DNA of 64,000 nucleotides from Natronoarchaeum philippinense (GTDB lineage Archaea; Halobacteriota; Halobacteria; Halobacteriales; Natronoarchaeaceae): NCBI RefSeq assembly GCF_900215575.1, contig NZ_OBEJ01000002.1, positions 186,001 to 250,000 on the forward strand. The letters run 5' to 3'. The notes beneath the pieces were generated by a model that ran no database searches, was not told the origin of the DNA, and saw only the letters and a list, made by a program, of their open reading frames with translations. This document shows, piece after piece, positions 2,473 through 27,581 of this stretch. A program made the position numbers and the translations under genes. Numbering within the stretch: the first letter of the stretch is position 1; every line of letters starts with the position of its first letter.

Positions 2473-2479
2473 TCCACCT

Positions 2480-3496
2480 ATGAAGAACGTCACACGGGAC
2501 AAGTTCGATCACAAGATCAACTACGAGTTCTGCGTCGCGCACCGAAACAAGGTCGAAGAGGGCACCCTGACGGGGTATCGATGGACGGTCAAGAGCTTCC
2601 TTGAGCACATCGAGGGGGAGGGAGTTGACCTTGAAAACATCGACTGGACGGACATCGACTCGTTCATCGATTCGATGGTCGAGGAGTACTCGCAGTCCAC
2701 AACGAAGACAAGGTACAACCACCTCAGGTCGTTCATCAAGTGGCTGCGTGCCCGGAAGGGGTACTACACCGACTCCGAGCAGCTACCCATCGACTCACGC
2801 CATCTCGAAATCAAGGAGTACATCGACAGAGGGGAGACAAAAAAGGGGAACGAGGCATCATCAAAGGAAGGAGTCGTCTTCGTTGAGGCGGGCGAGTACG
2901 AGTTGCTGAAGGAAAACGTGCCGGCGCCGAAATTCAGAAACGAGTTGATTCTGAAAATGCTGTGGCATCTCGGCCTTCGGCGGATGGAAGTGACCGAGAT
3001 GCAGATCACGCCGGAGATGCCGCACAAGGACGAGTACGGCAACATCGACTTCGGTGACAACGAGATCACCGTCCCGGATGTCAAGGGTGGCGGACGTGAG
3101 CTTTGGTTCCGTGACTCGCTGGCCGCGCCGCTGCGGCGGTGGATCGAGTCGGAGCGTCAGGCCGTCTACTACGCCGACGAATCCCAGTACCTGTTCCCAT
3201 CGCGGAACAGCGAGCAACTCACCCCAAAGCGGGTCACGTCGATGGTCGATCAGGCCGCGCAGAACGCTGGAATACAGTCCACGGTCTATGTCGATGCCAA
3301 CGGCAACGAGCGACGGCGGATCACACCACACGCTCTCCGACACGGATATGGCGTCAGACACGTGCGGAACGGTACTGACGTGCGGACTCTCCAGCAGCTA
3401 ATGGGGCATCACGACATCAGCGTCACGCAACACTACCTACAGTTTAAAACAGAGGCGAGAAAGCGAGCACAGCACCGGAACGCACCCGAAGTGTAG
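2480..3496 (+). CDS. int: Tyrosine recombinase (element integrase)
   Basis: A 338-residue XerC/D-type integrase with an N-terminal SAM-like core-binding domain (about residues 1-90) and a C-terminal catalytic domain. Catalytic residues are visible: Arg in LGLRRMEVTEM (about 165), the HALRHGYGVRH box (about 283), GHHDISVTQ and the nucleophilic Tyr in HYLQF (about 317). The ATG at 2480 gives a normal length; upstream in-frame codons overlap the preceding gene. Its place 690 bp inside attL marks it as the enzyme that inserted the element into nth. Unlike the split SSV-type integrases, its own gene is not interrupted by attachment. Confidence 0.92.
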   Translation: MKNVTRDKFDHKINYEFCVAHRNKVEEGTLTGYRWTVKSFLEHIEGEGVDLENIDWTDIDSFIDSMVEEYSQSTTKTRYNHLRSFIKWLRARKGYYTDSEQLPIDSRHLEIKEYIDRGETKKGNEASSKEGVVFVEAGEYELLKENVPAPKFRNELILKMLWHLGLRRMEVTEMQITPEMPHKDEYGNIDFGDNEITVPDVKGGGRELWFRDSLAAPLRRWIESERQAVYYADESQYLFPSRNSEQLTPKRVTSMVDQAAQNAGIQSTVYVDANGNERRRITPHALRHGYGVRHVRNGTDVRTLQQLMGHHDISVTQHYLQFKTEARKRAQHRNAPEV

Positions 3497-8989: not shown

Positions 8990-9847
8990 TCAATTGACTT
9001 CTTGAAACAGCGTGATGGCTTCTGCCTTGAACCGGTTGTACAGCCTTCTCTCGTCCCATTCATCCGCCTCGTGGATACGGTAGTCGTTGCGCCCCGCACG
9101 GACGATCACGGCGCTGTCGATGTCGAGCGAGTCGAGTTGATGCAAGGCAACTGTCTGCATTTTCGAGGCGTTGGTAACTCTTTTTGAGGTCTTGATCTCA
9201 ACGAGAATCACTTCCTCGGTGTCAGGATGTAGGAGCAGCAGGTCAATTCGACCGGCATAACCGGCCTCGCCGTGCTCGCGTTCCTTGTTGAGGAAGTTAG
9301 TTGTCTCAGGGTGTTCACACCTGATGACCTGTATTTTCGCGGCCGCGTACGTCTCGGCATCGATCAGGTTGCAAAGCGCGTCCTTGACCCGGGACGTGAT
9401 GTCGCGGGCATCCGACTGGGCTTGCTTGGCGAGATCGTCGAAGATGAATCGGTCGGGGTAGTAGTCCTTGAGCGTGGAGACCACCTCGACCTCTGTGCCG
9501 GTGTTGGGGTCGAGAAGTTGGGCTTTGATGTCGTCTCGCTTGTGGGTGGATCGGTAGTCGTCTTCCAGACTCTCCTGCAGGTTCAAGTGTGCGGTGCGTC
9601 CGACCAGTCCCGCGTATTCCCGGACGTGTTCCGGGTTCTCGACGCTCCGGTCGTAGTTTTCCAGCGGGAACAGAGGTTCGTGCAGTTCTCCCTCTATGGG
9701 GTGGTTGAAAGGCACTCTCTGCACGATCTCGTTGACGCTGGGGTAGTATGTCTCGCCCCGCTTGAAGCACCATACACCGTCTTTCTGGACTGCCCGGAGG
9801 TCGGAATCCGGAAAGTTCACCTCGTGGTGGAACTCAACGCTGGCCAT
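8990..9847 (-). CDS. PD-(D/E)XK nuclease, RecB/Cas4-like
   Basis: A 285-residue protein. The C-terminal half has the nuclease core: AGYAGRIDLLLLHPDTEEVILVE contains the GxxD of motif II, followed by VEIKTSKRV (E-x-K of motif III), then SKMQTVALHQL, the RecB-family motif with Gln and Tyr/His. The N-terminus (YYPSVNEIVQRVPF) resembles the start of PDDEXK_1 proteins. No four-cysteine iron-sulfur set of Cas4 is present and no CRISPR is nearby. ATG 9847 is chosen because TGATATATTG lies about 26 bp upstream. Probable DNA exonuclease for element recombination or defence. Confidence 0.72.
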   Translation of the reverse strand: MASVEFHHEVNFPDSDLRAVQKDGVWCFKRGETYYPSVNEIVQRVPFNHPIEGELHEPLFPLENYDRSVENPEHVREYAGLVGRTAHLNLQESLEDDYRSTHKRDDIKAQLLDPNTGTEVEVVSTLKDYYPDRFIFDDLAKQAQSDARDITSRVKDALCNLIDAETYAAAKIQVIRCEHPETTNFLNKEREHGEAGYAGRIDLLLLHPDTEEVILVEIKTSKRVTNASKMQTVALHQLDSLDIDSAVIVRAGRNDYRIHEADEWDERRLYNRFKAEAITLFQEVN

Positions 9848-9916
9848 ATCCCGTGGAACGCCCCGGGACAATATATCAGTTTTCCGAACAGACTTCGCCC
9901 CCACACACTTGGTACT

Positions 9917-10120
9917 TCAGGTCTCCACGGTTTGGAGATGACCATCGCGGGTCTCGATTTCCACGGTTTGCTCGCCCCGGGTGTCGATTTTGACCGTGGT
10001 TTCATTCGCCCGGGCTTGGATTTGGACGTTGACACCGTTGGCCCCGACCGAAAGGATTTCGAGGTCATCGTCAGCGTATCGTCCGCCGTTGGTGATTCGG
10101 TTGTAGGGGTCGAAGAACAT
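9917..10120 (-). CDS. Small unrecognised protein (67 aa)
   Basis: A short gene beginning MFFDPYNRITNGGRY and continuing in alternating beta-type sequence (VNVQIQARANETTVKIDTRG). TATTTAA lies about 28 bp upstream of the ATG, fitting a leaderless transcript. No motif was recognised. It lies upstream of the nuclease gene on the same strand, and each has its own promoter. Confidence 0.5.
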   Translation of the reverse strand: MFFDPYNRITNGGRYADDDLEILSVGANGVNVQIQARANETTVKIDTRGEQTVEIETRDGHLQTVET

Positions 10121-10207
10121 CTCGGACTCGAGTGCTCTCCTCGCTGGTTAAATACGTGTGCCCCGGAGGCTGCCCGGGCGTCAATATCACTCGAGTAGGC
10201 GTGTGCA

Positions 10208-10837
10208 TCACGAGCGGAACATTGCTTCGACACCATCACCGGTATCGGCGTTCTCCTCATCCTGACAGGGACAAGTCAGCGAATCGGCGAGCAAGTCGAG
10301 AACGTCGTGCCGCCGGTTGCAGTTCCCACACCTGACCTTGAGTTGAACGCTGGCCGAGGGTTCATCGATCTCGACTTCGCCTTCCCGGGCAAGACGTTCA
10401 AGCGACCCCTCAATGACGTTGGCAAATCGTGTTCGCATCTTCTTGATCTGTTGGAGATCGCGCTCCGGGTCAGGGGAGTAGTCGCGGCTAGTGTCGGCGT
10501 TGAGGCACGATTTCAGGTGCTTCAACACGGTTCGATAGGAGACGAAATCCGACGTAACCTGTTCGACATCCACGCCCGCGTCTCTCAGTTCGAGCTTCGC
10601 CTTGTCTTGAGCGGAGTCCATCACTTCATCATCGGTCAACAACCTGTGGTAGTTCTCTTCCTCGCCATCCAGAACAGTCATTCCAGCCCGCTCCATCGCT
10701 CGCCGAAGCAGTTGTTGGTTGATCCACGTCTCCAACCTTCTCACACCCACGTCACCGGTCTCGTAGCGATGGCAGAGTCGCTCGTCAAGGTTGTACAGGT
10801 CGTACTCGTCCCGGACTCGATCAACCTTGCAGGTCAT
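10208..10837 (-). CDS. RdfA-like protein (rod-determining factor family)
   Basis: A 209-residue protein with the pattern of the haloarchaeal RdfA family: start CKVDRVRDEYDLYNLDERL, then LETWINQQLLRRAMERAGM, LLTDDEV, a linker and SDFVSYRTVLKHLKSCL. Near the C-terminus CGNCNRRHDVLDLL and CPC supply a zinc knuckle. In Haloferax volcanii the chromosomal member is required for rod-shaped cells; paralogues are common on plasmids. Here the role is unknown and may be regulatory. The family call rests on remembered sequence pattern. Confidence 0.65.
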   Translation of the reverse strand: MTCKVDRVRDEYDLYNLDERLCHRYETGDVGVRRLETWINQQLLRRAMERAGMTVLDGEEENYHRLLTDDEVMDSAQDKAKLELRDAGVDVEQVTSDFVSYRTVLKHLKSCLNADTSRDYSPDPERDLQQIKKMRTRFANVIEGSLERLAREGEVEIDEPSASVQLKVRCGNCNRRHDVLDLLADSLTCPCQDEENADTGDGVEAMFRS

Positions 10838-11882: not shown

Positions 11883-13769
11883 CTAGTTGTCGTGTCGGGT
11901 CAAGCAGTACGGTAATCCAACGACTTCAACGGCTTCGACGTCCGGAGCCTTGATCACTGCCTGCCCTTTCCCGAACTTCGGAATGTCACGGCTGTAGCCC
12001 CGCGGCACCGAAGGCACATCCTCAACGACCTCCTCACGCAGATGGAGAAACACGTTCGTGTTGGTCTGTTTCAGGATGTCTCCGTCGATGTCCTCGGGAT
12101 TCTGCGTGATCATCATCAACCCGAGCTTGTCCTTGCGGCCCTGCTTGGCCGCCTCCCGTGCCCGCCCGACGATGTAGGCCTCTCGGACGTTGTCCGGACT
12201 CGAGAAGTAGTTGTGCGCCTCGTCGACCGCCACGAGCATCGGCGTGCGCTTGACCGCCGAATCGACATCGAAGTCGTCGATCTTGTTCTCGATGATGTAC
12301 GAGAGGATCGACAGCACGACGAGGTACTCCTTCTCGCCGCGAAGGTGGCTCGTCGGGATGACCGTGACCTGCCCCTCTCGGAAGAGCTGGTCACTGACCT
12401 CGGGAAACGGATTCGTCCCCGTGTCGAACACGTCGAAGTAATCGGCCTGCTTGGTGCGCCGCCAGACGGCTTCCCACGTTCCGTCGCCGATGCTGTTCCG
12501 GTCGCGGAGTGGACTGTTCGAATCGTCGTGCTCACCGAGGAACTCGATGAAGTCCTTGTACCGGGGATCGACGACCGACCGTGAGGGCCAATCGTCGTTC
12601 TCGTCATCGAAACAGCTGAAGTACGCGTCGATGCAGTCGGTGATGGCTCCCTGCGTGACGTCCGACATCTGATCGAACGGCATCAGCAGGCGCGGCTCGT
12701 CCTGCACGACCGAGAACGGAATGGTGAGTTGCTGGCTTTCGTCTGTCGATGGACTCCGGGTGCGATCGACCTCGGGGATGAACACCTCCAAGTCGTCGAC
12801 GCCATCGAACTCGATATTCTGTCGGCGGAGCTTCCGGCGTTGATCGTCGGTCAGCTCCGGATTGTCGTCGCGCATCTCCCAGTACTCGTTCTCGGGGTCG
12901 AAGACGACGACGTTGAGACGACTGCGCTCCATCTCGCCCTCCCCGACATCGACGGGATACCGCTTGCCGCTGACGAACTGCCGAAGCAGATTCTTCGTGA
13001 AATGGGTCTTGCCGGCGCCGGTCGATCCTGCGACGAGCGTGTGTCTGAACACCGCCGGCTCACCGTCTTCGATCTCGCTGGTATCGGGATCGATGCCGGG
13101 ATTCTGAATGTAGTAGGGGAATTCCTCGCCGTCGATCTCCATCGCATCGCCACCCACGGAGAGGTAGCCCGCGAAGATCCCCTCCTTCGGGATGTTGAGT
13201 CCGGTGCGGAGATAATCGTCATCTCGTGAGAGGCTGACCGGCGTGTTCGGCTTCGGAATGCGGTTGACGACACCGCGCTCAAGCTCGTCTCCCTGTTGAC
13301 GGAGGATAGCGATGGGCTCGAGTTCGGCCACGAGGACGAACTCCGATTCGTCCAGTTCGCGCTCGCGGCTGATCTGATTGTGTGTATCCGACTTGTCGTC
13401 GAGTTCGGTGTACGGCTCGTACCGGAGGCCATCGATGACGGAGAACAGCTCGTCGTCGCTGCTCGGATAGGGGATCTGAACGTAATCCCCGACACGCACA
13501 GCATCCCGATGATCGGTTGTCACGAACGCGTTGACGTTGTATTCGCTGCGGGTGACGTGAATTTCCTCACTCGCGAGGACGTGACCGATCTCGCCCTCGT
13601 CTGCGTCCGTCGTCGCGCTTGACACGGATGCCTCCGGAATTGCAGTATCCGACCCGTCGTCTATCTCCGTATCGCTCTGGTCGTCTGCCCCGACATCGCT
13701 TGCCTGTTCAGATGTCTGTTCGCCTTCGATCGGATCGTTTTCGAGCACGTCGTCTACGTTATCGGTCAT
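11883..13769 (-). CDS. herA: HerA-family DNA translocase ATPase
   Basis: A 628-residue HerA/FtsK-superfamily hexameric ATPase, last gene of the mre11-rad50-nurA-herA operon. The N-terminus is acidic, followed by a HAS-barrel region (IGHVLASEEIHVTRSEYNVNA). Walker A is GSTGAGKTHFTKNLL (about 248), Walker B MLVAVDEAHNYF (about 510), with a sensor-like MMITQNPEDID after it. The ATG overlaps the nurA stop (ATGA). HerA pumps duplex DNA to the NurA nuclease, in concert with Mre11-Rad50 end processing. A copy on a mobile element suggests a defence or element-processing role rather than housekeeping repair. Confidence 0.9.
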   Translation of the reverse strand: MTDNVDDVLENDPIEGEQTSEQASDVGADDQSDTEIDDGSDTAIPEASVSSATTDADEGEIGHVLASEEIHVTRSEYNVNAFVTTDHRDAVRVGDYVQIPYPSSDDELFSVIDGLRYEPYTELDDKSDTHNQISRERELDESEFVLVAELEPIAILRQQGDELERGVVNRIPKPNTPVSLSRDDDYLRTGLNIPKEGIFAGYLSVGGDAMEIDGEEFPYYIQNPGIDPDTSEIEDGEPAVFRHTLVAGSTGAGKTHFTKNLLRQFVSGKRYPVDVGEGEMERSRLNVVVFDPENEYWEMRDDNPELTDDQRRKLRRQNIEFDGVDDLEVFIPEVDRTRSPSTDESQQLTIPFSVVQDEPRLLMPFDQMSDVTQGAITDCIDAYFSCFDDENDDWPSRSVVDPRYKDFIEFLGEHDDSNSPLRDRNSIGDGTWEAVWRRTKQADYFDVFDTGTNPFPEVSDQLFREGQVTVIPTSHLRGEKEYLVVLSILSYIIENKIDDFDVDSAVKRTPMLVAVDEAHNYFSSPDNVREAYIVGRAREAAKQGRKDKLGLMMITQNPEDIDGDILKQTNTNVFLHLREEVVEDVPSVPRGYSRDIPKFGKGQAVIKAPDVEAVEVVGLPYCLTRHDN

Positions 13770-15046
13770 AGTTCGGGATCCTCCTCGATGTCGCTCCAGC
13801 GGCCATCCCAATTGTGGTCGTACGAGTATTCCGTGCGCTCGATCATATCGCGTATCGTGTCTCTGTTCTCCCGGCTGATGCGGGCGAGCCGGTCAGCCCG
13901 GTGAATCGCACGGGGCACGCCGCGCCGTTGAGCGATCTCCTTGAGCGCCTTCAGCCGCATCTGCTCGCGCATATCCTCGTCCTTTACCATCAGATACGGC
14001 GCCTCGATGCGCAGCAGGTCACCCGTCTTCGGCAGTCGCACGTAGCAAAACGCCCGCCGATACGCCTCGGCGTCACCGTGTCGTCCCCGGCCCGATATCG
14101 GTTCCAAGGCCTCGACGTGCTGTCCTTGAATCTCGCGAGACTGTTGCACGAACCACGAGGTGTAGGTGAGGTACTCCAAGTCGTCGAACCGCAGCACCTC
14201 GGACATAAACTGGTGGTCGCGCGTCCACGGCACGCTCACCAGTCGCCCACTGTCGTCACGGATATTGTGGCTGGCAATCTTCTCCCGGAGCGACGACAGC
14301 AACTGCGACAGGGATGACGTCTTCACGATGCCGATCACGGGCTGGTCGCGCTCGTACTGCCGGTCGATCACCTCGATATAGTTGCCGACGATGTCGGCGG
14401 GCACGTCCCACGAGCCCGCCGGCGAGCGGCCGCCGGTGTAGTCCAGCAATAACCAGTAGACGATTCCCAGCGGCAAAACGGCACCATCGAGAAAGAGCGG
14501 GCCGTCGACGCTCTCGACCGAGGCGAGCGCCTGCCGACTCTCGCTCATCCGCTGTGCAACGGACGCAACCGACTTTCCGATGTTTCGCGGTTCCTTGGCC
14601 GGCTGCGGGAAGGGGATCAGCTCTGCTGTCACATTATCGCCATCGAAGGTTTGGGCGTGCAGCGTACTGTCATCGTCATCGAAGTATGCGACGCCCGTGA
14701 TGTGTCCGGTACGCTCGATCTCGCCGCCGTCATCATTCCCCGCGACAGCAGTCTTCGCATACGCGGTGTCGACGACGAGCCCATTATTGTACTCGATGGG
14801 GCGAGTCGTGCCGGCGTCGACCCCATATGTAGCTCCCGCCCACGGGTCGTCGCTCCACGTTCCGAGTTCATCGATGCGCGTCCGCCAGTACTGCGGCTCT
14901 CCGATGGCCTCGACGTGTCCGCCCTCGCGAGCAAGTAATTCGAACAGCTGGCGGGCGTGATCGGCCTGCGAGGTCGGCTCACGCGGCACGGCCTGATCGA
15001 CCGCCTCGAACATCTCTCGCACGATGCCGAGCGATTCCGAGTCCAT
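13766..15046 (-). CDS. nurA: NurA-domain nuclease
   Basis: A 426-residue protein with NurA features: YGVDAGTTRPIEY (metal Asp), GPLFLDGAVLPLGI (second Asp), VIGIVKTSS (Lys), and the C-terminal RVEAPYL-like RIEAPYLMVKDEDM followed by VPRAIHRADRLARIS. NurA is a toroidal 5'-3' exonuclease/endonuclease that works only with HerA. Here it lies directly between rad50 (stop at 15049) and herA (4-bp overlap). The extra N-terminal 100 residues are acidic. ATG 15046 is chosen because it follows the rad50 stop by two bases. Confidence 0.85.
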   Translation of the reverse strand: MDSESLGIVREMFEAVDQAVPREPTSQADHARQLFELLAREGGHVEAIGEPQYWRTRIDELGTWSDDPWAGATYGVDAGTTRPIEYNNGLVVDTAYAKTAVAGNDDGGEIERTGHITGVAYFDDDDSTLHAQTFDGDNVTAELIPFPQPAKEPRNIGKSVASVAQRMSESRQALASVESVDGPLFLDGAVLPLGIVYWLLLDYTGGRSPAGSWDVPADIVGNYIEVIDRQYERDQPVIGIVKTSSLSQLLSSLREKIASHNIRDDSGRLVSVPWTRDHQFMSEVLRFDDLEYLTYTSWFVQQSREIQGQHVEALEPISGRGRHGDAEAYRRAFCYVRLPKTGDLLRIEAPYLMVKDEDMREQMRLKALKEIAQRRGVPRAIHRADRLARISRENRDTIRDMIERTEYSYDHNWDGRWSDIEEDPEL

Positions 15047-15048
15047 CG

Positions 15049-18000
15049 TTAGTCCGCCCCCGCCGTGTTCATCGTCACTCGGCTGGTGTTTGTCGTCTCG
15101 TCGATCTCGACGCGGCACGCGTGGTCGGCGCCGTGGATGAGCGTTTCGTCGTGGGAGACGACGATGACCTGCGGCACGTCCCAGTCGCGAATGCGGTCGA
15201 GCATCTCCTCGAGCTGATCGACGTGCCCCTCATCGAGGAACGTCGTCGGCTCGTCGAGGATGAACGGCGGGAGCCGCCCGCGGTCGCCGCCCTCCAGCTC
15301 GGCGATGAGCTTGTAGATGCCCGCGCGAAGCGCGAGGTTGACGATGGCCCGCTCGCCGCCGCTGGCGTTGCTCGGATCCTCGGTCATCCCGTCATCGCGC
15401 AGGAGCTGGATGTCGTAATCGTAACTGTTGCTGCGCTCGTCGTAGGTTTCGCTGATGACCACGCGCTGGTAACTGCTGTTGCGGTAGATCTCTTGGAAGA
15501 TGTCGTTCGTGTACTCGTTGATGTAGGCGAGGTACTCCTCGCGGAGTTCCGACTTGACCGTCTCGTAGACGGAGATGGTTTCGTCCAACTCGTCGTGGAC
15601 TTCCCTCGCCCACTCGGTCTTGCGCTCGTACGTGTCGATCTTCTCCTTCAGGTCACGCAGATTTGACAGCTCATTCCGCAACTCCGCACGCTCGTCGCGG
15701 AGCGTCTGCACTCGCTCCTGTAACTCGTCGCGCGTTTGCTCGCGCTCCTCGATCTTGTCCTCGACCTCCTCGAGCTTCTCTTCCAACTCCTCAATATCGG
15801 TGTCACCGAGTCGTTCCGTGAGGTCGTCACGCTCGTCGCGAAGCGTGGCGAGCTGCTCGTTGAGATTCTCGATGGTTTCGCGGTAATGCTCGATATCCTG
15901 CTGCTCGTTCGCTCGCTCGGATTCTCGGTCGTCGATCTGCTCGTAGAGATCGTTGATCTCCGCCACCGTCTCCTTCGTCTCTTCGAGGTCAGCAACGTGT
16001 TCCGCGGCCTCTTCGAGAGATCCTTCGCGCTCGGCAACGGTCTCCTTCTGTTGGTCGATATCTGCTTCCAACTCCTCGATGCGCTCCTCCACGTCCTCGA
16101 TCTCGCTTTCCACGGTCTCGCGGTCGTCCTCGAGGTCTTCTATCTCCGACTTGATGTCCTCAACCTGTTCGCGCTTCTGTTCGACGCGCTCGAAGCGATT
16201 GGCGAGCGTCTCGCCGGTCTCGATTTCCTCGACCACCTCATCGCGGTCGGTCTGGAGTCCGTCGATTTCGTCTTCGAGATCGTCGATCTCTGCCTCAAGG
16301 CCGTCGATAGTGTCCTCGTGGCTCTCCAACTCCTCTTCAAGATCGGCGATTTCCTCTTCCAGCTCGGATTCTCGCTCCCGAAGCTCGTCGAGATTCTCCT
16401 TCGCTGCTTTCACCTCGTCGTTCCGGAATTCGATGAGGTCGAGAACGTCGTCGCGTAGCGCATCTATTTCGTCGCGCGTTTGTTCCAGCGACTCGCGCTC
16501 GCTTCGAGCGGCCTCCAACTTCCGGGTGATCTCGTCCAACTCGGATTCGATCTCCGCAACTTCGTCCTCGATATGGGTCTCATCGACCGGCTGCTTGCAG
16601 CGGGGACACTTGCTTTCCTCCTCAAGCTCGCGCAATTCGTCCAAGTCCGCGTTGCGTTGCTCTCGTTGCTGTTCAAGCGCGGCGATTCGGTTGTCAATCT
16701 CGTTGTACTCCTCGCTCACGTCTGCACGCAGGTCTGGCAACCGCTCGTTGGCCGCCGTCTCCAACTCATCGGCCGCGAGGTCGATGTCGTGTTCCGTCGC
16801 GCGGGATTCGAGCGACGAGAACCGCGACTCGAACTCGTCGACAACCTCGTCGACGCGCTCTTCGGCGTCCTCTATGTCGGCCTGCAGCGCGTCCAGATCG
16901 CTCTGTCGCTCCTTTAGCTCCTGCTCGCTCTGCTGGGACTGCTCGCGCTCCTCCTCCAGATCGCTCTGTCGCTCGTCGAGAGTGGTCTCTCGTTGGGCCA
17001 ACGTGGTCTCGATGTCGTTGCGCTCGTCCTCGAGGTGGTCGATTCGCGCCTCAACGTCCTCGATGGTCGAGGCGTCCACGTCGGCCGTTGATTCTGGCCC
17101 CGGGAGAAACTCGACTGCCAACTCATCCCGATCGTCGATGGCATCGTTGAGTTCGTCCTCCGCCTCGTCAAGATCGGTCTGGCGACCCCCGATTTCGGCC
17201 GCGATGTCGTCGCGCTCGTCACGCAGTTCCGATAGCTCGTCCTTCGCATCTGTCAACTTCTGTTCGAGGTCGTCGAGTTCATCTTGAGCCTGCTCCAGCG
17301 CATTCTCCCGGTCGTTTGCCTCGACCGAGGCGTCCTGCAGTTCATCCTGCACGGTATCGAGCGCATCAGCTGCGGCGTCCGCTGTGCTGGCGTCGTAATC
17401 AACGGAATCCGCGAGTTCCTCGATCTCGTCTTCCAGCTCGTCGATTTCGTCGTTCAGCTCCTCGATGCGCTCCTCGCACTCCTCGATTTGGCGTTGCTTG
17501 CGGTTGCGCTCCTCGGTGGTCTCCTCGATCTGCTCCTCTTTCTCGGCCTTCTTTTCGGCCACCTCCTCGTAGGAGTCGATGTCCGCTTCGACCTCGGCCC
17601 GCGCGTCTCGGAGCTCATCGAGGTAGTCCTCCACGTCGTCGATCTTCCCCTCGACATCACGAATTTCCTCGTCCTTTGCTGCGATTGCCTCCTCGAAGTC
17701 CTCCTCATCGCGGTCGAAGTCCTCATTGAGTTCCGAGCGGCGCTCGTCCGCGCTGTCGCTGTTGCGGGTCTGGACGCGTCCCGCGCCACGCCGCGCCATT
17801 TTCATTCGCTCGATGTATTCGTCGATCTCGTCAAGGCCGAGCAGCCCGTCAATCATCTCGGCGCGGTCGCTCGCCTCGATGAGACGATCGATCTCACCCT
17901 GCTTGACGTACACCGAACTGGCGAAGTCCTCCTCGTCCATACCGAGGATGCGAGATATCTCGCTGCGGACGTCCCGGATGCCCGACACCGGACTGGACAG

Positions 18001-18321
18001 GGATGCCGATGTCAGCGTGGCGTCGTTCGGCGTGCTGGTGGTGTAGATCTCCCACTCGACGGTGTACTCCGTGCCGGCAACCTCGAAGGTGAGTTCGACG
18101 ACGCCCTTGTCCTCGCCGCGGCGGACGAACTCATCGAGCGCGAAATTGTTGGTGCCGACGTTCCGAATCTCGGAAAGGAACAGGCCGCCGAACACGCCCA
18201 TCAGAAGTGAGGTCTTGCCTGCGCCGTTCTCCCCGTGGATGAGGATGGTGCCTTCGGGGAAGTCAACTGTCTGATCGGCGTAGCTGCGGATGTTCTGGAG
18301 ATGCAGTTGCTTGATTTTCAT
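15049..18321 (-). CDS. rad50: Rad50-like SMC ATPase
   Basis: A 1090-residue Rad50, longer than typical archaeal copies because of an extended coiled coil. Walker A is GENGAGKTSLL (about 32), the zinc hook is CPRCKQPV (about 572), the ABC signature is NASGGERAIVNLALR (about 990), and Walker B with D-loop is FILDEPTTFLDEGH (about 1023). Two long Glu/Arg-rich coiled coils flank the hook. The ATG overlaps the mre11 stop (ATGA), so a stoichiometric complex is likely. The antisense strand contains long serine-rich open frames that are by-products of the repeated coiled-coil codons. Confidence 0.95.
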   Translation of the reverse strand: MKIKQLHLQNIRSYADQTVDFPEGTILIHGENGAGKTSLLMGVFGGLFLSEIRNVGTNNFALDEFVRRGEDKGVVELTFEVAGTEYTVEWEIYTTSTPNDATLTSASLSSPVSGIRDVRSEISRILGMDEEDFASSVYVKQGEIDRLIEASDRAEMIDGLLGLDEIDEYIERMKMARRGAGRVQTRNSDSADERRSELNEDFDRDEEDFEEAIAAKDEEIRDVEGKIDDVEDYLDELRDARAEVEADIDSYEEVAEKKAEKEEQIEETTEERNRKQRQIEECEERIEELNDEIDELEDEIEELADSVDYDASTADAAADALDTVQDELQDASVEANDRENALEQAQDELDDLEQKLTDAKDELSELRDERDDIAAEIGGRQTDLDEAEDELNDAIDDRDELAVEFLPGPESTADVDASTIEDVEARIDHLEDERNDIETTLAQRETTLDERQSDLEEEREQSQQSEQELKERQSDLDALQADIEDAEERVDEVVDEFESRFSSLESRATEHDIDLAADELETAANERLPDLRADVSEEYNEIDNRIAALEQQREQRNADLDELRELEEESKCPRCKQPVDETHIEDEVAEIESELDEITRKLEAARSERESLEQTRDEIDALRDDVLDLIEFRNDEVKAAKENLDELRERESELEEEIADLEEELESHEDTIDGLEAEIDDLEDEIDGLQTDRDEVVEEIETGETLANRFERVEQKREQVEDIKSEIEDLEDDRETVESEIEDVEERIEELEADIDQQKETVAEREGSLEEAAEHVADLEETKETVAEINDLYEQIDDRESERANEQQDIEHYRETIENLNEQLATLRDERDDLTERLGDTDIEELEEKLEEVEDKIEEREQTRDELQERVQTLRDERAELRNELSNLRDLKEKIDTYERKTEWAREVHDELDETISVYETVKSELREEYLAYINEYTNDIFQEIYRNSSYQRVVISETYDERSNSYDYDIQLLRDDGMTEDPSNASGGERAIVNLALRAGIYKLIAELEGGDRGRLPPFILDEPTTFLDEGHVDQLEEMLDRIRDWDVPQVIVVSHDETLIHGADHACRVEIDETTNTSRVTMNTAGAD

Positions 18322-19484
18322 TCGTCTGTCACCTCCGTTGGAGTCGCTTCGGCAGCCTCATCGAACGCCTCGGCCTGTGCGTCCATCACCATCTCCTCGA
18401 CCTCGTCGTCGAAGCCCGATGGAGCCACGCCCTCGGTGCGCACGCGCTCGTCGATCTGGGCGGCGATGTCGCTGAGATCCTTCTCTGCGAGCTTCTCCTC
18501 GATTCGCCTGTCCTTGTTCTGCACGTCGCCGCTCGGGCCGTCCGAGGTGTCGATTTCGGGGCCGCCCCGCTCGTCATCGACGCAACAGACCGCCGCACCG
18601 CGATCCATAACGATCCCGCGAACGTCGCTCGAGGTGACCGAATTCGACTCCCCGACCACGGTGACGAGAACGACCTTTTTCTCGACAACGTGGCGATCGA
18701 TCTCGTCCTCCGCGTGACCGTAGCTATCATCCTCGGTGAAGTTGATCGTGATCGTCTCGAAATCCCGCGTGTCCAGTTCTTTCTGCCGACGCGTCAGCTC
18801 ACCGTTCTCGATTTCGAGGAGACTGACGCTTCGAGACGCATCCTCGTCCACCGCGCACCGTTCCGTCGACCCGGCGTACCAGACTGTCGTTCCCCGTTCG
18901 ACAGTCCCGACGGACTCGTGATAATCGCCGAGCGCAAGCGCATCGAGGTCGAGATTCAAGCGGTCGAGCACGTCCTCGAGGGGATGTTCGGCCTGAATCT
19001 CCGGAACCGGGGGCTGGAGGAGTTGATGCATACAGAGAATCGTGAAGACGTCCTCCGGAGGCGAATCAAGTGTGAAGTCCTCGGCGTGCCACGCCGGCCG
19101 TGTCACGGCGTCGATGCCGTAGATGGCCACCTCGTCGTTGATGAGAGTTGGAGACGTGTCGAGACGCTCCGCCGCTCCGGTCTTGCGGATGAGATCGAGG
19201 TATTGGTCGTCCATCTTGCGCTCGTGATTGCCGACGATGCCGTAGAAGGGGATGTCGGCGGCGTCGAGCGACTGGAGGATGTCGATGCAGCGGTTCAGGT
19301 CTGGCAATCGGGGATCCCGCGTGTCGAAGAGGTCTCCCGTGTGGATGACGGCGTCGACATCTTGGTCGATGGCGTATTCGATGGCCTGCTCGAATGCGTC
19401 CGCGAAGTCCTCTCGGCGTGTATCGCTCCCGTACTGGCGGTTCCCGAGGTGAGTGTCGCTGACGTGGAGGAGCCGTGTAGTCAT
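18318..19484 (-). CDS. mre11: Mre11-like nuclease
   Basis: A 388-residue calcineurin-like phosphoesterase with all Mre11 motifs: HVSDTHLGNRQYG, HTGDLFDTRDPR, YGIVGNHERKMDD, CMHQLLQPP and ALGDYHES; the last is GDxH as in other haloarchaea. The C-terminal third is acidic and probably binds Rad50. First gene of the four-gene operon, with promoter DNA shared with the divergent Kiwa genes. Mre11 cuts DNA ends and hairpins with Rad50. The operon probably duplicates functions the host already has. Confidence 0.93.
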   Translation of the reverse strand: MTTRLLHVSDTHLGNRQYGSDTRREDFADAFEQAIEYAIDQDVDAVIHTGDLFDTRDPRLPDLNRCIDILQSLDAADIPFYGIVGNHERKMDDQYLDLIRKTGAAERLDTSPTLINDEVAIYGIDAVTRPAWHAEDFTLDSPPEDVFTILCMHQLLQPPVPEIQAEHPLEDVLDRLNLDLDALALGDYHESVGTVERGTTVWYAGSTERCAVDEDASRSVSLLEIENGELTRRQKELDTRDFETITINFTEDDSYGHAEDEIDRHVVEKKVVLVTVVGESNSVTSSDVRGIVMDRGAAVCCVDDERGGPEIDTSDGPSGDVQNKDRRIEEKLAEKDLSDIAAQIDERVRTEGVAPSGFDDEVEEMVMDAQAEAFDEAAEATPTEVTDE

Positions 19485-19705
19485 ACGATATCGAATGTGG
19501 TGGTGGATGACAGATAAGTCTGGGTCAACCGACGTGAAAGTGAAATATTAGAGGATAGTTGCCTACTAAGGATTGTAAACACCACCCACAGAACGGTAAA
19601 GGGGCCCCACAAGACACTCATTAGGGACGATAGACACTTTGAAGAGTACACAAGCGAAATTATAGCCCCTGAATCGCTCCCCGGTTTCAGGTGTGAACTT
19701 CACTG

Positions 19706-20296
19706 ATGACGACCAATAAGGGTGGATTGAAAGATTGGGCGAAGTGGCTGCTCTTCTTTAGTTCCTACTTTCCGCTCTACGTCATCATCGCCGTCAAGAC
19801 CCGGACGTCGAACTTTGACTTCCTCCTCTTCCAGACGCCCGTGTACCACCTTGCCGGGTACAAGCTCTCGCTGGTCTCGGCCCTCTTTCTGGTCTTCGGG
19901 CTGTTCGTTCTCGCCTTTCTCTACGTGGTTGTCCGATTCAAGCGAGCGGAGAACGGGCAACCCAAAGAAGTCGGCGAGCCGGCTGAGCGGAACGAGCTGA
20001 TCATCACGTACATCCTCGTCCACGTGGTTCCGTTCGCCTTCATTAACTACTCGAAGACCCTGAACCTTCTCGCATTCATCTTTCTCTTCCTCTCCATCGG
20101 GATCATCCAAGTTCGGTCGTCGTACCTCTATGTCAACCCCATCCTGTCGGCGATGAGGTACGACCTGTACGAGATAGAGGACGCCGACACGCGAGGGCAG
20201 ATGTTGCTGGTCAAAACCTACGAACACGCCAACTCCGAGGAGACGACGGTCACAGCAGTGGAGTTAAGTAATGATGTCTACATAACGACCAGTTGA
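19706..20296 (+). CDS. kwaA: Kiwa defence membrane protein KwaA
   Basis: A 196-residue membrane protein with four predicted helices: LLFFSSYFPLYVIIAV, LVSALFLVFGLFVLAFLYVVV, ITYILVHVVPFAFINY and LLAFIFLFLSIGIIQV. The SYLYVNPILSAMRYDLYEI block matches the conserved NPxL segment that follows the last helix in KwaA. Its stop overlaps the ATG of the next gene (TGATG), and that gene has the KwaB pattern, so the pair is a two-gene Kiwa system. KwaA senses phage infection at the membrane. A TATA-like AATTATAG lies about 40 bp upstream. Confidence 0.8.
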   Translation: MTTNKGGLKDWAKWLLFFSSYFPLYVIIAVKTRTSNFDFLLFQTPVYHLAGYKLSLVSALFLVFGLFVLAFLYVVVRFKRAENGQPKEVGEPAERNELIITYILVHVVPFAFINYSKTLNLLAFIFLFLSIGIIQVRSSYLYVNPILSAMRYDLYEIEDADTRGQMLLVKTYEHANSEETTVTAVELSNDVYITTS

Positions 20297-21345
20297 TGGG
20301 CGCCACGGAGGAAGTAGAAGAGCCAATTGACGTTGGGGAGAAATTAGAGGAAGTCGTCGATTTCGTTCAGGGAGTTAACGAGGATAACGACCCGTACGAC
20401 CTCATCGTGGCGAGGGAAGGCGAAGAGGATGAAGACGACGAGAACAACCACACAGTCTACGAGTTCAAACGCGCGAAGACCGTCGGCGATCTCCCCGAGA
20501 GACTGGGAAACTTCGCCGAGGACAAGATCGAGACCAAGCAGCAAGCGGTGGCCGACGAGTCGAAGGAAGCCGTCGAGTACGCCGCGGCCAACATCTCCAA
20601 TCAGTCCGACTACGTGCAACACGTCCTTGCCGATGATGTCCCCCGATTCGAGCAGTACCAAGACCTGCTGACGACCGACGACTTCGAGCAGACCGACTAC
20701 ATCAATGAGGACGGTGAAGGCCCGGAGTTCCAAGTCATTCTCATTCGCGATGGAACGGAAGACCGAGCCCTCGTCTTCCAAGACATCACCCGGCGCGAGA
20801 TTCTCGGCAGGGATGATAAAATTCGGTTCTGGTCGACGGATGACCACTACACGGACGTAGACAAGACCATCGTTGAGGTTCCGAACCGAATCGATGCCGT
20901 GTACTACGACGGCCACATCTTCATTTTCGACCAGCGGCGTTTCGAGAAGATTTTCGATTATATGGACGAGTTCAACGAGGTCGCCGAGGACACCGTTGAG
21001 GAGATCGTTGACAGCGATGTTCCCATTCACACCGATGACGTGTTCCTTGACGCGGTCACCTCCTATCCGAACGCGACCCGTATCTTCTACGCTGTGCGCG
21101 AGCGGGCGCTTTGGGAGCACGAGGATGTCGATATGAATACTTTCGACTACATCGTTGACGAGTTCGACCTCTCCATCGACATCGAGGAGCGGGATGGTGA
21201 AGAGGGAATCGTGCTGGAAGACAAGCGAAATGTCTGGGAAGTCATCCACCTCTACAACGACGACCACCTGAGTTCTCCGATAACCGAAGTCGGATATCAG
21301 GTCGAAGGGAAGGACGCCCGAACCGAAGAGGTCGGTGAAGAGTAA
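20296..21345 (+). CDS. kwaB: Kiwa defence effector KwaB (DUF4868)
   Basis: A 349-residue protein. Family landmarks are the central IDAVYYDGHIFIFDQRRFEKIF block and the C-terminal HLYNDDHLSSPITEVGYQVEGK block, both hallmarks of DUF4868/KwaB. The N-terminus is very acidic. KwaB binds DNA and, with KwaA, blocks phage late transcription and replication in bacteria. The gene overlaps kwaA by one base. Divergent from the mre11-rad50 operon, it forms part of the 12-31 kb defence island. Confidence 0.8.
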   Translation: MGATEEVEEPIDVGEKLEEVVDFVQGVNEDNDPYDLIVAREGEEDEDDENNHTVYEFKRAKTVGDLPERLGNFAEDKIETKQQAVADESKEAVEYAAANISNQSDYVQHVLADDVPRFEQYQDLLTTDDFEQTDYINEDGEGPEFQVILIRDGTEDRALVFQDITRREILGRDDKIRFWSTDDHYTDVDKTIVEVPNRIDAVYYDGHIFIFDQRRFEKIFDYMDEFNEVAEDTVEEIVDSDVPIHTDDVFLDAVTSYPNATRIFYAVRERALWEHEDVDMNTFDYIVDEFDLSIDIEERDGEEGIVLEDKRNVWEVIHLYNDDHLSSPITEVGYQVEGKDARTEEVGEE

Positions 21346-22482: not shown

Positions 22483-23316
22483 TCACTTGTACTCCGTGAA
22501 GGGGCGTTCAAGCGAAAGCTTTCCGCCAGCGAAGAATGCTGAATCGTGGTCGGCGTCCATCTGCCCGGATCTAGACCAACTGAACTCGCATTCCTCGATT
22601 CCATCCCCTGCGCTTCTGACAACGGATGGTTCTTCCTCAAAAGTTCCAAGCAGCTCCGAGTAAGGAAAGTTCTCAACCTTGGCCTGCAATCCGTCCTTCC
22701 AGATCACAGGAATGGTGTCGTGTTCGAACCCGGGGACGGATGCAGAGCCGTTCCGCGCCTCCTCGGCGTGATCCTCGTAGGCGGCGAATGGAATGATGTA
22801 CCCACGATCGAAGAACAGTTGACAGACGAAGATCGGGACGTCGTACTGGTCTCGCCACGACTGGAGTCGGGGGAAGTCCTCGTCCTTCACGTACGCGGAC
22901 AGGGAACTGTTGTATTGCCGTTCTCCGATGTGGAACTTGCTCGACTCGGCTTCGAGAGCCATCTCCGCTGCGTCGATGGCTTCCGACCGCTCCAGTTCCG
23001 GCAGAATTGATGCTCTCTCGTCGGGGTCTCCCGCGATGTAGTTCTCCACGAGTTCGCGGGCATCACCGGCGAGTCCTCGAAAGTCCTCTTCCTCGTAGAC
23101 GAGCACGTCGGGCCGCTTCATCTCCTCGACGCCGGGTTCCTTCACCTCGTCGAGTTCGTCCTTCGTGTCGAGTGCGTCGCCCCGAGAGACGCCGTACTGG
23201 AAGGCGAACAGACCGTCCTGTCGCTCTATTGTCTCCATCAGAACGGTCTCCGCCCACTCGCCCCGGGCGAACTTGTGGGAGAAGTCCTCGCCGCGTGGAA
23301 TGTCTCCGATGTCCAT
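22483..23316 (-). CDS. Restriction endonuclease-like protein, possibly AccI family
   Basis: A 277-residue protein. The start has GEWAETVLME; then MKRPDVLVYEEED and AAEMALEAESSKFH give a plausible PD...ExExxK active site. It is followed by LSAYVKDEDFPRLQSW and VPIFVCQLFFDRGYIIPF, an arrangement I associate with AccI-like type II enzymes. It lies in one operon behind a XamI-like endonuclease and near an adenine methylase. AccI (GTMKAC) and XamI (GTCGAC) sites overlap, so one methylase could protect against both. The AccI assignment is from memory and uncertain; nuclease fold is more secure. Confidence 0.55.
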   Translation of the reverse strand: MDIGDIPRGEDFSHKFARGEWAETVLMETIERQDGLFAFQYGVSRGDALDTKDELDEVKEPGVEEMKRPDVLVYEEEDFRGLAGDARELVENYIAGDPDERASILPELERSEAIDAAEMALEAESSKFHIGERQYNSSLSAYVKDEDFPRLQSWRDQYDVPIFVCQLFFDRGYIIPFAAYEDHAEEARNGSASVPGFEHDTIPVIWKDGLQAKVENFPYSELLGTFEEEPSVVRSAGDGIEECEFSWSRSGQMDADHDSAFFAGGKLSLERPFTEYK

Positions 23317-23356: not shown

Positions 23357-24262
23357 TTACGAGAAGTAGCTGTGGAGGGTGTCGAGGCGGTGTTCCCAGA
23401 AGATGGTGATGTTGTCGTTGACGAGAGTATCGATCTGACTCTCTGGAATCCAGCCGGAGAGTGCCGCGCCCACGTCGGCGTCGGGGTAGGTACTTCGCCA
23501 GTCGGACTCCTTGTTGCGAATCTCCTTGATCCGCTTGTAGGAGTCGATTTTGACGCCTATCGCCTTTGCCTCGATGAAGACGAGACCGCCGTCGCGTTTG
23601 CGGGCCACGAAGTCGGCCTTCTGGTTGTCTCCCCCGCTGACGGCTACCTTGGTCTCCGGGACGAACGATCCAGTTGGAATGTCGTCCTTGGATTCGAGGA
23701 CGGACGACCGGCTCACTTTTTCGAGACCGGCTTCCATCATCGTCTCGGCCACCTTCTCTTCCTGCACGTCCTTTCGCCAGTTTCGGTAGCGGGTCTTCGC
23801 CTCGGACTGGGCGATTATGTCGCAGACCCACTCCCGGGACTGCTCCAGCTCGTAGTCCTCGTCCTGCACGTTCTCGTGCAGCCAAGGCACCTTTCGCTCG
23901 TCCAGATTGCGCTCCACGAAGTCGGCCATCTGCTCCGCGGTGTTCGTGTTCGGCGTGGTGGGGTTGTCCTTCTCGTAGGAGTCCGTGGAGTTGATGCCGG
24001 ACATTTGACCGAACTTCATCTGCGAGATGGGTGGTTTGACGAGGTAGCGCAGAACCTTCACCACGTTCGGGTTGTCTCGGATGACGGAGGGGCCGAAGTT
24101 GCGGAAGTTGTTGGTGCGCTCGGCCGCGTAGTCGAACAGTTCCTTGTGATCCTCGAACTCCTGCTCGTAGAAGTCTCGGATTGCGTCTAAGAAGATTTCT
24201 TCCTCGAATTGCTGGCTTTCCTGAACGACATCCTCTATGGATTCCTGAGACGAGAGCTGCAT
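23357..24262 (-). CDS. XamI-like type II restriction endonuclease, copy A
   Basis: A 301-residue protein. Conserved blocks are NNFRNFGPSVIRDNPNVVKVLRYL, EAKTRYRNWRKD and the PD-(D/E)XK core KADFVARKRDG...VFIEAKAIG (about 212-232). It ends IFWEHRLDTLHSYF. It is clearly homologous along its whole length to the protein at 26572-27474, which lies on the other side of the methylase. The family pattern fits XamI-like enzymes, which cut GTCGAC. The start at 24262 is chosen from a TATA-like ATAAAAAGATAT about 30 bp upstream. Divergent from the methylase gene, allowing ordered expression. Confidence 0.72.
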   Translation of the reverse strand: MQLSSQESIEDVVQESQQFEEEIFLDAIRDFYEQEFEDHKELFDYAAERTNNFRNFGPSVIRDNPNVVKVLRYLVKPPISQMKFGQMSGINSTDSYEKDNPTTPNTNTAEQMADFVERNLDERKVPWLHENVQDEDYELEQSREWVCDIIAQSEAKTRYRNWRKDVQEEKVAETMMEAGLEKVSRSSVLESKDDIPTGSFVPETKVAVSGGDNQKADFVARKRDGGLVFIEAKAIGVKIDSYKRIKEIRNKESDWRSTYPDADVGAALSGWIPESQIDTLVNDNITIFWEHRLDTLHSYFS

Positions 24263-24416
24263 ACTGACAGGATACATGCTGGGTTGATATCTTTTTATGT
24301 GAGGACTGACGTCGTCGGCGCCGAGACGATGCAGTCAGATAGATACATACAGGATGAGGCGGAACATCGGAGCAACGTGATCCTTTACGCTTTGAATCCT
24401 GTTGGAGGGCGATATT

Positions 24417-26570
24417 ATGAGTAGGTCTGGCACCGTCGAGCAGGTCATCTCCGACGTGGCCGAGTCCATCGAGGATGACGTTGAATCGGTGGATGGGTTC
24501 GATGAATGGGTTGAGGCGCACGGTCTCGGGCGCACCGACTCCGCGGAGGAGATCGTCGCTCGACAGGCGGCCTTTCACGTTTCTCTTGTCTCCACGCTCC
24601 ACGAGTCGTATCGGAATGAAGGAGTTGAGCTGCCGTCGCTTGACGCCGAGAATTACCGGGAAAGTGTTTCCGAGGCTCGTGCTGAGACTAGAGATGAGTC
24701 CTTCGAACCGTACTTCCTGTCCGAGGTTGCCGATCTTTTCTCCAAGGACGATCTCTCTCGCCTGATTGAGACCCGGGAACAGTTTCTCTCCGCCGACGAT
24801 CCGGCTGAGTCCATCGGGCACGTTCACGAGTCGCTCGTCCCGCGAAAGGATCGGCACAAGCTCGGTCAATTCCGAACGCCGCCCGTTATCTCGGACTTGA
24901 TGGCCAAGTGGGTTGTCCGGGACGGCTCTGATCTGGTTCTCGATCCGGGCATCGGTGCGGCGGCTCTCTCAACGAGCGCGTACGCGGCGAAGAAGAGACG
25001 TGAGAACGAGTCAGAGTTGGACGAGATGTTTGGCGTGGACGTGAGCGAGTTGTCCGTTCTGATGGGCACGACTGCGCTCCGACTCTCTAACGGTGGCGGG
25101 AGTCCGAACCTGCAGACACACGACTTCATCGATCTCCAGCCCGACGAGGTTGACAAGGTGGATGCGGTCATCTCGAATCCGCCGTACACGCGACATCACG
25201 AGTTCGATGAGGACGTGAAGGCCGAGATGAACCGACAGATGGAGAACGAGGCCGACCGCTCCATCTCCACCCTTTCTCCACTCTACGCCTACTTCTACAT
25301 CCACGCCACCCAGTTCCTCGCCAACGACGGGAGGGCGACGTTCATCACGCCGTCCGAGTTCCTCGAGACGAAGTACGGTGAGGACTTGAAGGCGTTCCTG
25401 CTGGACAACTTCCACATCCGCGGATTCGTGCTGTACGACCGGGAGGCGGACTCGCAGTTCGACGAGGCACTCACCACCTCGTTCATCAGCTTCCTCGAGC
25501 GAAAGACTGCTGACGAGGACGACGACGAGGAGTTGACCAAGTTCGTCCGCGTGGACGAGTGGCCGGGACAGGACGCGGTTCTCGACGCTGTTGACGATGG
25601 AACGGAGGGTGAGACTGACTGGGGGTTCGTGAACACGGTTCGACAGTCCGATCTGGAGCCAGAGGACAAGTGGGACGATCTGCTTGACCCGCTCGACATC
25701 GGTGACGACGAGCAACTCGTCCCGTTCTCCGAGATTGGTGAGGTGAACCGAGGCATCGCCACCGGGAAGAACGACTACTTCTGCCTGAGCGAAGATGAAC
25801 TGTCCGGCTCTGCGGGCGAGTACAAGTGGGACATCGAAGACCGGTGGCTGTCACCGCTCATCCGAAACGCACGGGCCGTTCCCAACTTCGATTACCGTGA
25901 GGAGGATTGGGAGCGGCAACGCAACGAGGGCGAGGAGGTGTGGATTCTCTACCACCTCGATGAGTTGGAGTGGGTGCCGCAACTTCACCCGGACTCAGAT
26001 GATGGGGAAGACAGCCAGAACGCTCGCATCAGCGACTTCGGTGCAGCTTCCGAGGAGGACGAGGAAGACCTGCCGAGCATTGTGGAGTATCTGAAGTACG
26101 GGATGGAGGAGTTGGAGGTTCACGACGGGTATCTGGCGAGTAACCGCGAGCCGTGGTACGTCTTCGACCGCCGCGATCCCGCACCCATTCTCTACACGTA
26201 TATGAGCCGCTCCCGGGGACGATTCGTGCGCAACCGCACCGACGCGCGAAATCTCACCAATCTGCACTGCGTCTACCTTGACGTGGAGTTGGCGGAGAAG
26301 GAGATCGATGCGCTTCTGGCCTACCTGAACAGTCCGTTTGCCGACGAGATCGTGAAGCGGCACGGACGGACGTACAGCACGGGGATGGACAAAGTGGAGC
26401 CGAACGAGTTGGAGGGCGTGCCGGTCATCGATCCCCGGACGCTTGACTCCGAGACCGTTGACCGGCTGGCCGGACTGTTCGATGACCTCTGTGAGGCCAG
26501 TCGAAACGGTGGTGAAGAAGAGGTTCTTGACCAGTTGACCGCCGCGCTTGACGACATCCTCGACGTGTGA
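24417..26570 (+). CDS. N6-adenine DNA methyltransferase (Eco57I/TaqI type)
   Basis: A 717-residue methyltransferase with motif I LVLDPGIGAAAL, motif II DEMFGVDVSEL and motif IV ISNPPYTRHHEF (about 253), marking an N6-adenine amino-methylase of the gamma class. The C-terminal 350 residues form the target-recognition part (HLDELEWVPQ, YSTGMDKVEPNEL). No N-terminal nuclease core is visible, so it is a separate methylase rather than a type IIG fusion. A GGAGG ribosome-binding site 8 bp before ATG 24417 decides the start, which is rare in this mostly leaderless genome. It protects DNA against the flanking XamI-like enzymes. Confidence 0.88.
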   Translation: MSRSGTVEQVISDVAESIEDDVESVDGFDEWVEAHGLGRTDSAEEIVARQAAFHVSLVSTLHESYRNEGVELPSLDAENYRESVSEARAETRDESFEPYFLSEVADLFSKDDLSRLIETREQFLSADDPAESIGHVHESLVPRKDRHKLGQFRTPPVISDLMAKWVVRDGSDLVLDPGIGAAALSTSAYAAKKRRENESELDEMFGVDVSELSVLMGTTALRLSNGGGSPNLQTHDFIDLQPDEVDKVDAVISNPPYTRHHEFDEDVKAEMNRQMENEADRSISTLSPLYAYFYIHATQFLANDGRATFITPSEFLETKYGEDLKAFLLDNFHIRGFVLYDREADSQFDEALTTSFISFLERKTADEDDDEELTKFVRVDEWPGQDAVLDAVDDGTEGETDWGFVNTVRQSDLEPEDKWDDLLDPLDIGDDEQLVPFSEIGEVNRGIATGKNDYFCLSEDELSGSAGEYKWDIEDRWLSPLIRNARAVPNFDYREEDWERQRNEGEEVWILYHLDELEWVPQLHPDSDDGEDSQNARISDFGAASEEDEEDLPSIVEYLKYGMEELEVHDGYLASNREPWYVFDRRDPAPILYTYMSRSRGRFVRNRTDARNLTNLHCVYLDVELAEKEIDALLAYLNSPFADEIVKRHGRTYSTGMDKVEPNELEGVPVIDPRTLDSETVDRLAGLFDDLCEASRNGGEEEVLDQLTAALDDILDV

Positions 26571-26571: not shown

Positions 26572-27474
26572 TCAGGCCTCGAGGAAGTCCGAAAGTCCGT
26601 CCAACTCGTGATCCCAGAACACGGTGATGCCAACCTCTTCGAGCCGCTCCACGTCGTCCGTGTCTATCACTCCGCCAATCACGGCGACAATCTCTGAGTC
26701 AGGCCTGCCGTCCGTCCAGTCGTTGTAGTCGTCGATCATCTCCTTGCGGCGCTTGTGGAAGTTGATCTCGGTGCCGCTCATCTTCGCTTCCACGAGGAAC
26801 AGATCGCTGTCCCGGTTGCGGATGGCGAAATCGGCCTCCTTCCCCTCGACGCTCAACTCCAGCACGTACTCCCCGGGGCCGATCTCATCCACGTCGTCCA
26901 CGTTCACCTTCTCGAAGCCGGCCTCGAAGAGTTCGTCGTTGATGGCGTCGTGCTGGATGGTGGCCCGCCAGTTTCGGTACTCCGTGTTCGCCTCGGACGT
27001 TGCGATATTGTAGGCGATGGCCGTCTGGAGCTTCTTCACGAGAGTTTCCTCGTCGTATTCGTGGTACTCCATCTGCTCCACTTCGAGCCACGGCAACAGG
27101 GTCTCGTTCCGAAATTCTTCGAACGTGCCGATGATCTTCTCTGCGGTGTTCGGCTGCGGCGTCGTGTCGTCCTCGTAGTCCTCATACTTTCGGAGAGTCT
27201 GATCGCCTACATCACAGTACTCGCTGAACTTGTCGCGGCTCAGAATCGGTTCGGTCAGGTAGCGCAGAATGCGGACGGTGATGGGATTCTCTCGGACGAA
27301 GTCGATGTCGACGTCTCTGAAATTGTTGGACGCCTCGGCCAGCTCTCTGAACACTTCCTCGGTGGCTTGGAAAATCTCTCGCTGGAATTCGCCGCACTTC
27401 TTCACGTACCGCTCTTTCTCCTGCTCACGACTTTCCTCGGCCAGCTCTTCCAGCGTCTTATCCGATACACTCAT
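26572..27474 (-). CDS. XamI-like type II restriction endonuclease, copy B
   Basis: A 300-residue paralogue of the protein at 23357-24262. Shared blocks are NNFRDVDIDFVRENPITVRILRYL, TPQPNTAEKI, ANTEYRNWRATIQHD, the core EADFAIRNRDS...LFLVEAKMSG (about 213-230) and the ending VFWDHELDGLSDFL. The nuclease motif is intact. It converges on the methylase with one base between the stops. Two diverged but intact copies around one methylase suggest a heterodimer, or two enzymes sharing a site or differing in one base. Confidence 0.72.
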   Translation of the reverse strand: MSVSDKTLEELAEESREQEKERYVKKCGEFQREIFQATEEVFRELAEASNNFRDVDIDFVRENPITVRILRYLTEPILSRDKFSEYCDVGDQTLRKYEDYEDDTTPQPNTAEKIIGTFEEFRNETLLPWLEVEQMEYHEYDEETLVKKLQTAIAYNIATSEANTEYRNWRATIQHDAINDELFEAGFEKVNVDDVDEIGPGEYVLELSVEGKEADFAIRNRDSDLFLVEAKMSGTEINFHKRRKEMIDDYNDWTDGRPDSEIVAVIGGVIDTDDVERLEEVGITVFWDHELDGLSDFLEA

Positions 27475-27581
27475 CCGAAATATCCCTCTTTTCACTCGCT
27501 TCGAGACCCCTGCTGTAAAACGCACTGGTGTCATCGCGGCGAGACACAAGCATCAAGAGTCGACAGGCTTATCAGGGAAGT

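Follow-up and report, generated by a model that had tools for sequence, protein, structure and literature searches.

Mre11, Rad50, HerA, and NurA constitute a textbook repair set, and in bacteria RecBCD degrades linear phage DNA. The operon encoding the four archaeal proteins is essential in Sulfolobus, and in S. islandicus its order is given as herA, mre11, rad50, nurA (PMC4351679). What HerA-NurA does is disputed between resection and antiviral defense; the T. kodakarensis pair cuts both strands, and an antiviral role has been proposed for it (PMC12977600). Non-CRISPR archaeal immunity is poorly mapped, and HerA, NurA, Mre11, and Rad50 do not appear in the main text of a 2026 survey of archaeal immunity (PMC12988326). 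Here we describe a haloarchaeal cassette encoding all four proteins that is an accessory, horizontally mobile, self-contained unit, separate from the housekeeping copies.

The cassette lies in a 64,000-nucleotide stretch of the Natronoarchaeum philippinense genome, hereafter the window, with its four genes on the minus strand. The mre11 gene (18318-19484) encodes a 388-residue calcineurin-like nuclease that matches PF00149 (Metallophos, 5e-13) and Mre11 in the PDB, and an alignment with 45 homologues shows its metal-binding motifs to be intact. Rad50 (15049-18321; 1090 residues; PF13476, AAA_23, 9e-20) retains Walker A and B, the ABC signature, and a CPRC zinc hook. NurA (13766-15046; 426 residues; PF09376, 9e-13) begins at an ATG, a longer GTG-initiated frame being an unlikely alternative. 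Its conserved acidic residues are intact, and although its profile matched no PDB chain by sequence, a fold search with its AlphaFold model (pLDDT 90) returned NurA structures from T. kodakarensis, S. solfataricus, and others as the best matches. HerA (11883-13769; 628 residues; PF01935/PF09378, HerA/DUF87, 8e-13) carries a HAS barrel and intact Walker A and B motifs. With the four families together, their motifs intact, and the NurA fold recovered, the locus belongs to the archaeal Mre11-Rad50-NurA-HerA type.

An earlier note on this DNA, made from the sequence alone, had described one operon with overlapping stop and start codons. The single strand and the ATGA overlaps at the mre11/rad50 and nurA/herA junctions bear this out, but rad50 and nurA are separated by a 2-nt gap. 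Its remark that the order is that of thermophilic archaea is only roughly right; in S. islandicus herA comes first, whereas here it comes last (PMC4351679). Rad50 is indeed unusually long, at 1090 residues against 903 for the host's other copy.

The cassette sits within a low-GC island of ~51 kb (~2.3-53.5 kb), where the GC profile of the window drops to 0.53-0.62 from 0.63-0.66 on both sides. A tyrosine integrase gene (2339-3496, plus strand; PF00589, 9e-23) lies near the left edge, and a prolyl-tRNA synthetase gene lies just past the other end. Movement of the island as a whole is plausible and no more, because we found neither an att repeat of at least 15 bp between the first 5 kb and 50-64 kb of the window nor a tRNA. 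Divergent from the cassette are the Kiwa genes kwaA (19706-20296, plus strand; PADLOC KwaA, 3e-28) and kwaB (20293-21345, plus strand; Pfam KwaB, 3e-17). Pfam and PADLOC also identified a type II restriction-modification set comprising an AccI-like endonuclease (22483-23316), two XamI-like endonucleases (23357-24277 and 26572-27549), and an Eco57I-type methylase (24402-26570), so that the Kiwa and restriction neighbors named in the earlier note are as described. Just downstream of herA, RdfA (rod-determining factor A, 1e-55) adjoins a weakly Cas4-like protein at 8990-10837. We considered RdfA, the Cas4-like protein, and Kiwa as fixed partners and rejected them, as they are not conserved beside other cassettes.

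We searched for NurA across a sample of 394 haloarchaeal species and read up to 20 kb around each cassette-type relative. NurA occurs in nearly all 394 species, and a separate group of relatives is found only sporadically. This group defines 47 cassette loci, 43 of which contain all four genes on one strand in the order mre11, rad50, nurA, herA, most of them with intergenic distances of roughly -4 to +2 nt. The gene-order survey that the earlier note suggested thus places the complete cassette in 43 species (11%) from seven families, plus one remnant. The other four loci are divided between contigs, truncated where a contig ends, interrupted, or reduced to remnants. Broken or remnant cassettes amount to about 7 of the 47 loci; reading frames are split in five, some perhaps through sequencing errors, another cassette is interrupted by ~9 kb, and a further one survives only as a remnant. 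In one genome (G296), two 20-kb copies that are 99.8% alike and bear damaged cassettes occupy the same chromosome (C1, ~1-21 kb and 3286-3306 kb).

The closest named carrier is Natronosalvus hydrolyticus (69%), and others include Haloferax elongans, Haloferax massiliensis, and members of Halorubrum, Halovenus, Halorhabdus, Natrinema, Halosimplex, and Haloquadratum. In Haloferax alexandrinus, Halocatena salina, Natrinema, and Natribaculum the cassette is plasmid-borne. A phylum-wide profile search returned no cassette-like scores outside the haloarchaea, where matches score like the canonical copies; at seven non-haloarchaeal loci that we checked, HerA is 45-52% identical to canonical haloarchaeal HerA versus 30-33% to cassette HerA. 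One subclade (L087-L091) has a Rad50 without the CxxC zinc hook and a HerA Walker A of GSTDAGK or GATDAGK rather than GSTGAGK, sequence features that suggest a second cassette subtype.

The possibility that the host lacked other mre11 and rad50 genes, raised in the earlier note, is excluded. A second Mre11-Rad50 pair is present at C2:751-753 kb, its Mre11 39% identical to the window copy. NurA and HerA also recur as a pair, at C1:1085-1088 kb. Canonical Mre11 and NurA likewise accompany the cassette in 36 of the 43 genomes; the remaining seven are without canonical copies. Canonical Mre11 and NurA were not detectable in family f8/genus g26, G363, and G021, some of which have the cassette only. 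The cassette occurs in only part of g26, a genus in which we found no canonical NurA. Several g26 genomes show no NurA match at all (E ≤ 1e-8), and the cassette is therefore no obligatory substitute in this genus. The Haloferax volcanii genome that we used as a control contains matches to the NurA Pfam family; a review states that HerA and NurA are absent from this species (PMC7776575).

Phylogeny separates the two kinds of copy and shows how differently they are inherited. Cassette Mre11 proteins form one group apart from the canonical copies (SH-aLRT 100), and their trees depart from the species grouping, so that the agreement with the species tree that would have refuted the earlier note's reading is absent: in matched genomes, the Mre11 tree requires 13 changes of family for cassette copies versus four for canonical ones, and the NurA tree 12 versus four. 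Mre11, NurA, and HerA diverge in step with one another, their distances being correlated (Mantel r 0.94-0.98). Purifying selection acts on each of the four genes, with dN/dS of 0.04-0.26 over eight pairs. Fifty pairs of cassettes are at least 75% identical in DNA. In most of these the homologous stretch runs from ~60-250 bp before mre11 to near the herA stop codon, the DNA beyond it being unrelated, and in a minority it reaches farther to one side. Some cassettes from different families are 90-95% identical in DNA. Present in 43 of 394 genomes and passed between families, the cassette does not behave as a core, vertically inherited repair locus. Two genomes assigned to different families (G003:C1 437600-457599 and G065:C1 38600-58599) carry the cassette in practically identical stretches exceeding 18 kb, the result either of a transfer that happened very recently or of contamination in one of the assemblies. 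A comparison of the 20 kb around one cassette (G375) with 53 genomes of its genus revealed no empty site with joined flanks, the matches being mainly multicopy and insertion element-like.

Around the cassettes, no other gene is conserved save an OLD-family ATPase-nuclease that follows herA by ~250 bp in four loci from different genera (L051, 13435-15351; L053, 13496-15412; L054, 3885-5804; L056, 9701-11617), where it is at least 91% identical. To compare surroundings, we took the two closest genes on either flank of the cassettes and did the same for canonical nurA-herA and mre11-rad50 loci. At E ≤ 1e-15, the genes flanking cassettes matched 138 PADLOC families and those flanking canonical loci eight, for the most part Cdc48-type ATPases and homing endonucleases or inteins; because these figures count families rather than proteins, carry no formal test, and come from related loci that are not fully independent, the comparison is supportive rather than statistical. 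Cassette neighbors include a full Avs2 (L058), DndC (L055), OLD (L051 and L054), a GajB-like helicase (L063), a PLD/SNF2-type helicase (L087), and the Kiwa and restriction-modification genes of the window, and Pfam adds Piwi, OLD-TOPRIM domains, and transposases. Such defense genes are hardly found next to canonical copies. The cassette is thus mobile, modular, and situated in defense islands, as expected of a candidate defense system; that of Halocatena salina is a counterexample, with sugar-transport neighbors and no defense genes. The gene set itself fits no system described in PADLOC, which returns only generic HerA and SMC-like profiles, nothing for NurA, and a marginal match for Mre11. 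Rad50 matches to LmuB, JetC, and PbeC were set aside as SMC/coiled-coil cross-matches.

The region upstream of mre11 links the cassette to the DNA damage response. An exact copy of the motif TTTCACTTTCA lies 50 nt ahead of the mre11 start codon (19535-19545, minus strand), and a TATA-like CTTAT, recognized by comparing upstream regions, lies 30-34 nt ahead of it (19514-19518, minus strand); a longer element, ACTTTCACGTCGGTT, opens with the 11-mer motif (19527-19541, minus strand). The same 11-mer, at the same spacing of ~50 nt, is the haloarchaeal UV-response motif of the UV-B-induced radA1 and top6B promoters (PMC2556686). In the host genome, exact TTTCACTTTCAC occurs at nine sites, three of which precede radA, top6B, and the cassette mre11, the identities of radA and top6B being read from their translations. 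It also precedes three small, related proteins of 86-108 residues with paired CxxC motifs (G000:C1:1011052, C1:1127769, and C9:34224; L253, L254, and L259), possibly an unstudied part of the damage response.

Most cassettes share the element ACTTTCACNNNGGT ~50 nt before mre11, shortly ahead of a TATA-like stretch. With up to two mismatches, the motif is found in 23 of 44 cassette promoters, versus 1.1 in shuffled sequences and one on the antisense strand. It is found in nine of 36 canonical mre11 promoters and in none of 38 canonical nurA promoters; in most cassettes, then, nurA and herA come, along with mre11-rad50, under an element absent from canonical nurA promoters. The divergent lineages L082-L091 are without it. 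The UV-type motif ties the cassette to the host DNA-damage regulon, and from its sequence and position we would expect the transcript to be induced.

We propose, with a probability of about 0.5, that the cassette is a mobile, damage-inducible, RecBCD-like end-degrading module that is mainly protective. DNA damage or infection would switch on the operon through the promoter element. Mre11-Rad50 would then locate, tether, and nick free or protein-blocked double-stranded ends, and a HerA hexamer would pump the duplex into NurA, which would degrade it much as RecBCD does. The chief benefit would be the removal of linear invading DNA, whether from haloviruses or from transformation or transfer, and the repair of host breaks might be aided as well. 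The analysis establishes gene content, motifs, selection, and genomic behavior; that the proteins form complexes, are induced, degrade DNA, and protect the cell is our inference. OLD and Gabija act upon inhibition of RecBCD (PMC12904381), and an OLD protein beside an end-processing module would fit this behavior. More tentatively, at somewhat less than even odds, we suggest that archaea exchange the cassette horizontally as an immune system that does the work of RecBCD and is wired into the host DNA-damage regulon; in some lineages, the OLD nuclease encoded downstream may serve as a back-up or guard.

The damage-response promoter suits repair at least as well as defense, and the earlier note's formula of defense rather than repair is for this reason too sharp, since the motif ties the cassette to the host damage regulon; what stands of it is the company of defense genes at many loci. 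The cassette could instead be a mobile, damage-inducible accessory repair module, a second end-resection set against breaks caused by UV or desiccation with no immune role. The presence of the UV-response motif also at radA, top6B, and canonical mre11 (PMC2556686), the strong purifying selection, and the seven genomes in which the cassette is the sole mre11/nurA set all speak for such a role. The sporadic distribution (43 of 394, with only part of g26 and several g26 genomes without detectable NurA), the roughly 7 of 47 loci that are broken or remnant, and the defense-gene neighbors weigh against it, and we favor defense while regarding accessory repair as the less likely reading.

Improbable, in our view, is that these are recombination or replication genes serving the DNA metabolism of one plasmid or virus, as phage gp46/47 do. 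Cassettes do reside on Haloferax, Halocatena, Natrinema, and Natribaculum plasmids, and the window's island has an integrase, but no element gene is conserved in the flanks and homology ends at the cassette; relatives of NurA were absent from phage records, and those of NurA and HerA from IMG/VR. That the host's own repair genes were recently duplicated or relocated would account for the same four protein families, but Mre11 is only 39% identical to the host copy, and canonical haloarchaeal HerA is 45-52% identical to HerA of a non-haloarchaeal family of the phylum and ~31-36% to cassette HerA. We give this explanation almost no weight, and the deep split in the tree rules out a recent duplication.

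A mobile mre11-rad50-nurA-herA cassette was not described in the full-text literature that we searched, which did not cover subscription papers or preprints. The parts are known; as far as we could check, how they are arranged, spread, and regulated is new. The cassette may be an unrecognized archaeal immune or emergency-repair module. In species that keep canonical copies, its role is open to clean deletion and transfer, a route that is impossible in Sulfolobus because the genes are essential there, and the UV-type motif offers a ready handle on a damage-inducible archaeal module.

Several described systems resemble the cassette in part. Like RecBCD/AddAB and SbcCD, it is proposed to degrade linear double-stranded DNA from its ends at the expense of ATP; its helicase-nuclease part is not homologous to that of RecBCD, however, and it is mobile whereas the bacterial sets are core. 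Wadjet and Lamassu also pair a Rad50-like ATPase with a nuclease, and Rad50 matches the LmuB and JetC profiles, largely through coiled coils, but the cassette lacks JetABD and other Lamassu genes and has true Mre11, NurA, and HerA. HerA-SIR2 and HerA-DUF4297 likewise join a HerA translocase to a catalytic partner in mobile defense islands, whereas the partner here is NurA plus the whole of Mre11-Rad50. Cassette HerA matches bacterial defense HerA chains weakly and no more clearly than does canonical HerA, which hits the same chains. The repair operons of Sulfolobus and Pyrococcus/Thermococcus share with the cassette the same four families in one operon, intact motifs, and the NurA fold. The cassette differs from these in having herA last, beside nurA, where S. 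islandicus has it first, and in being an extra copy that is mobile, sporadic, located in defense islands, and preceded by a UV-response motif.
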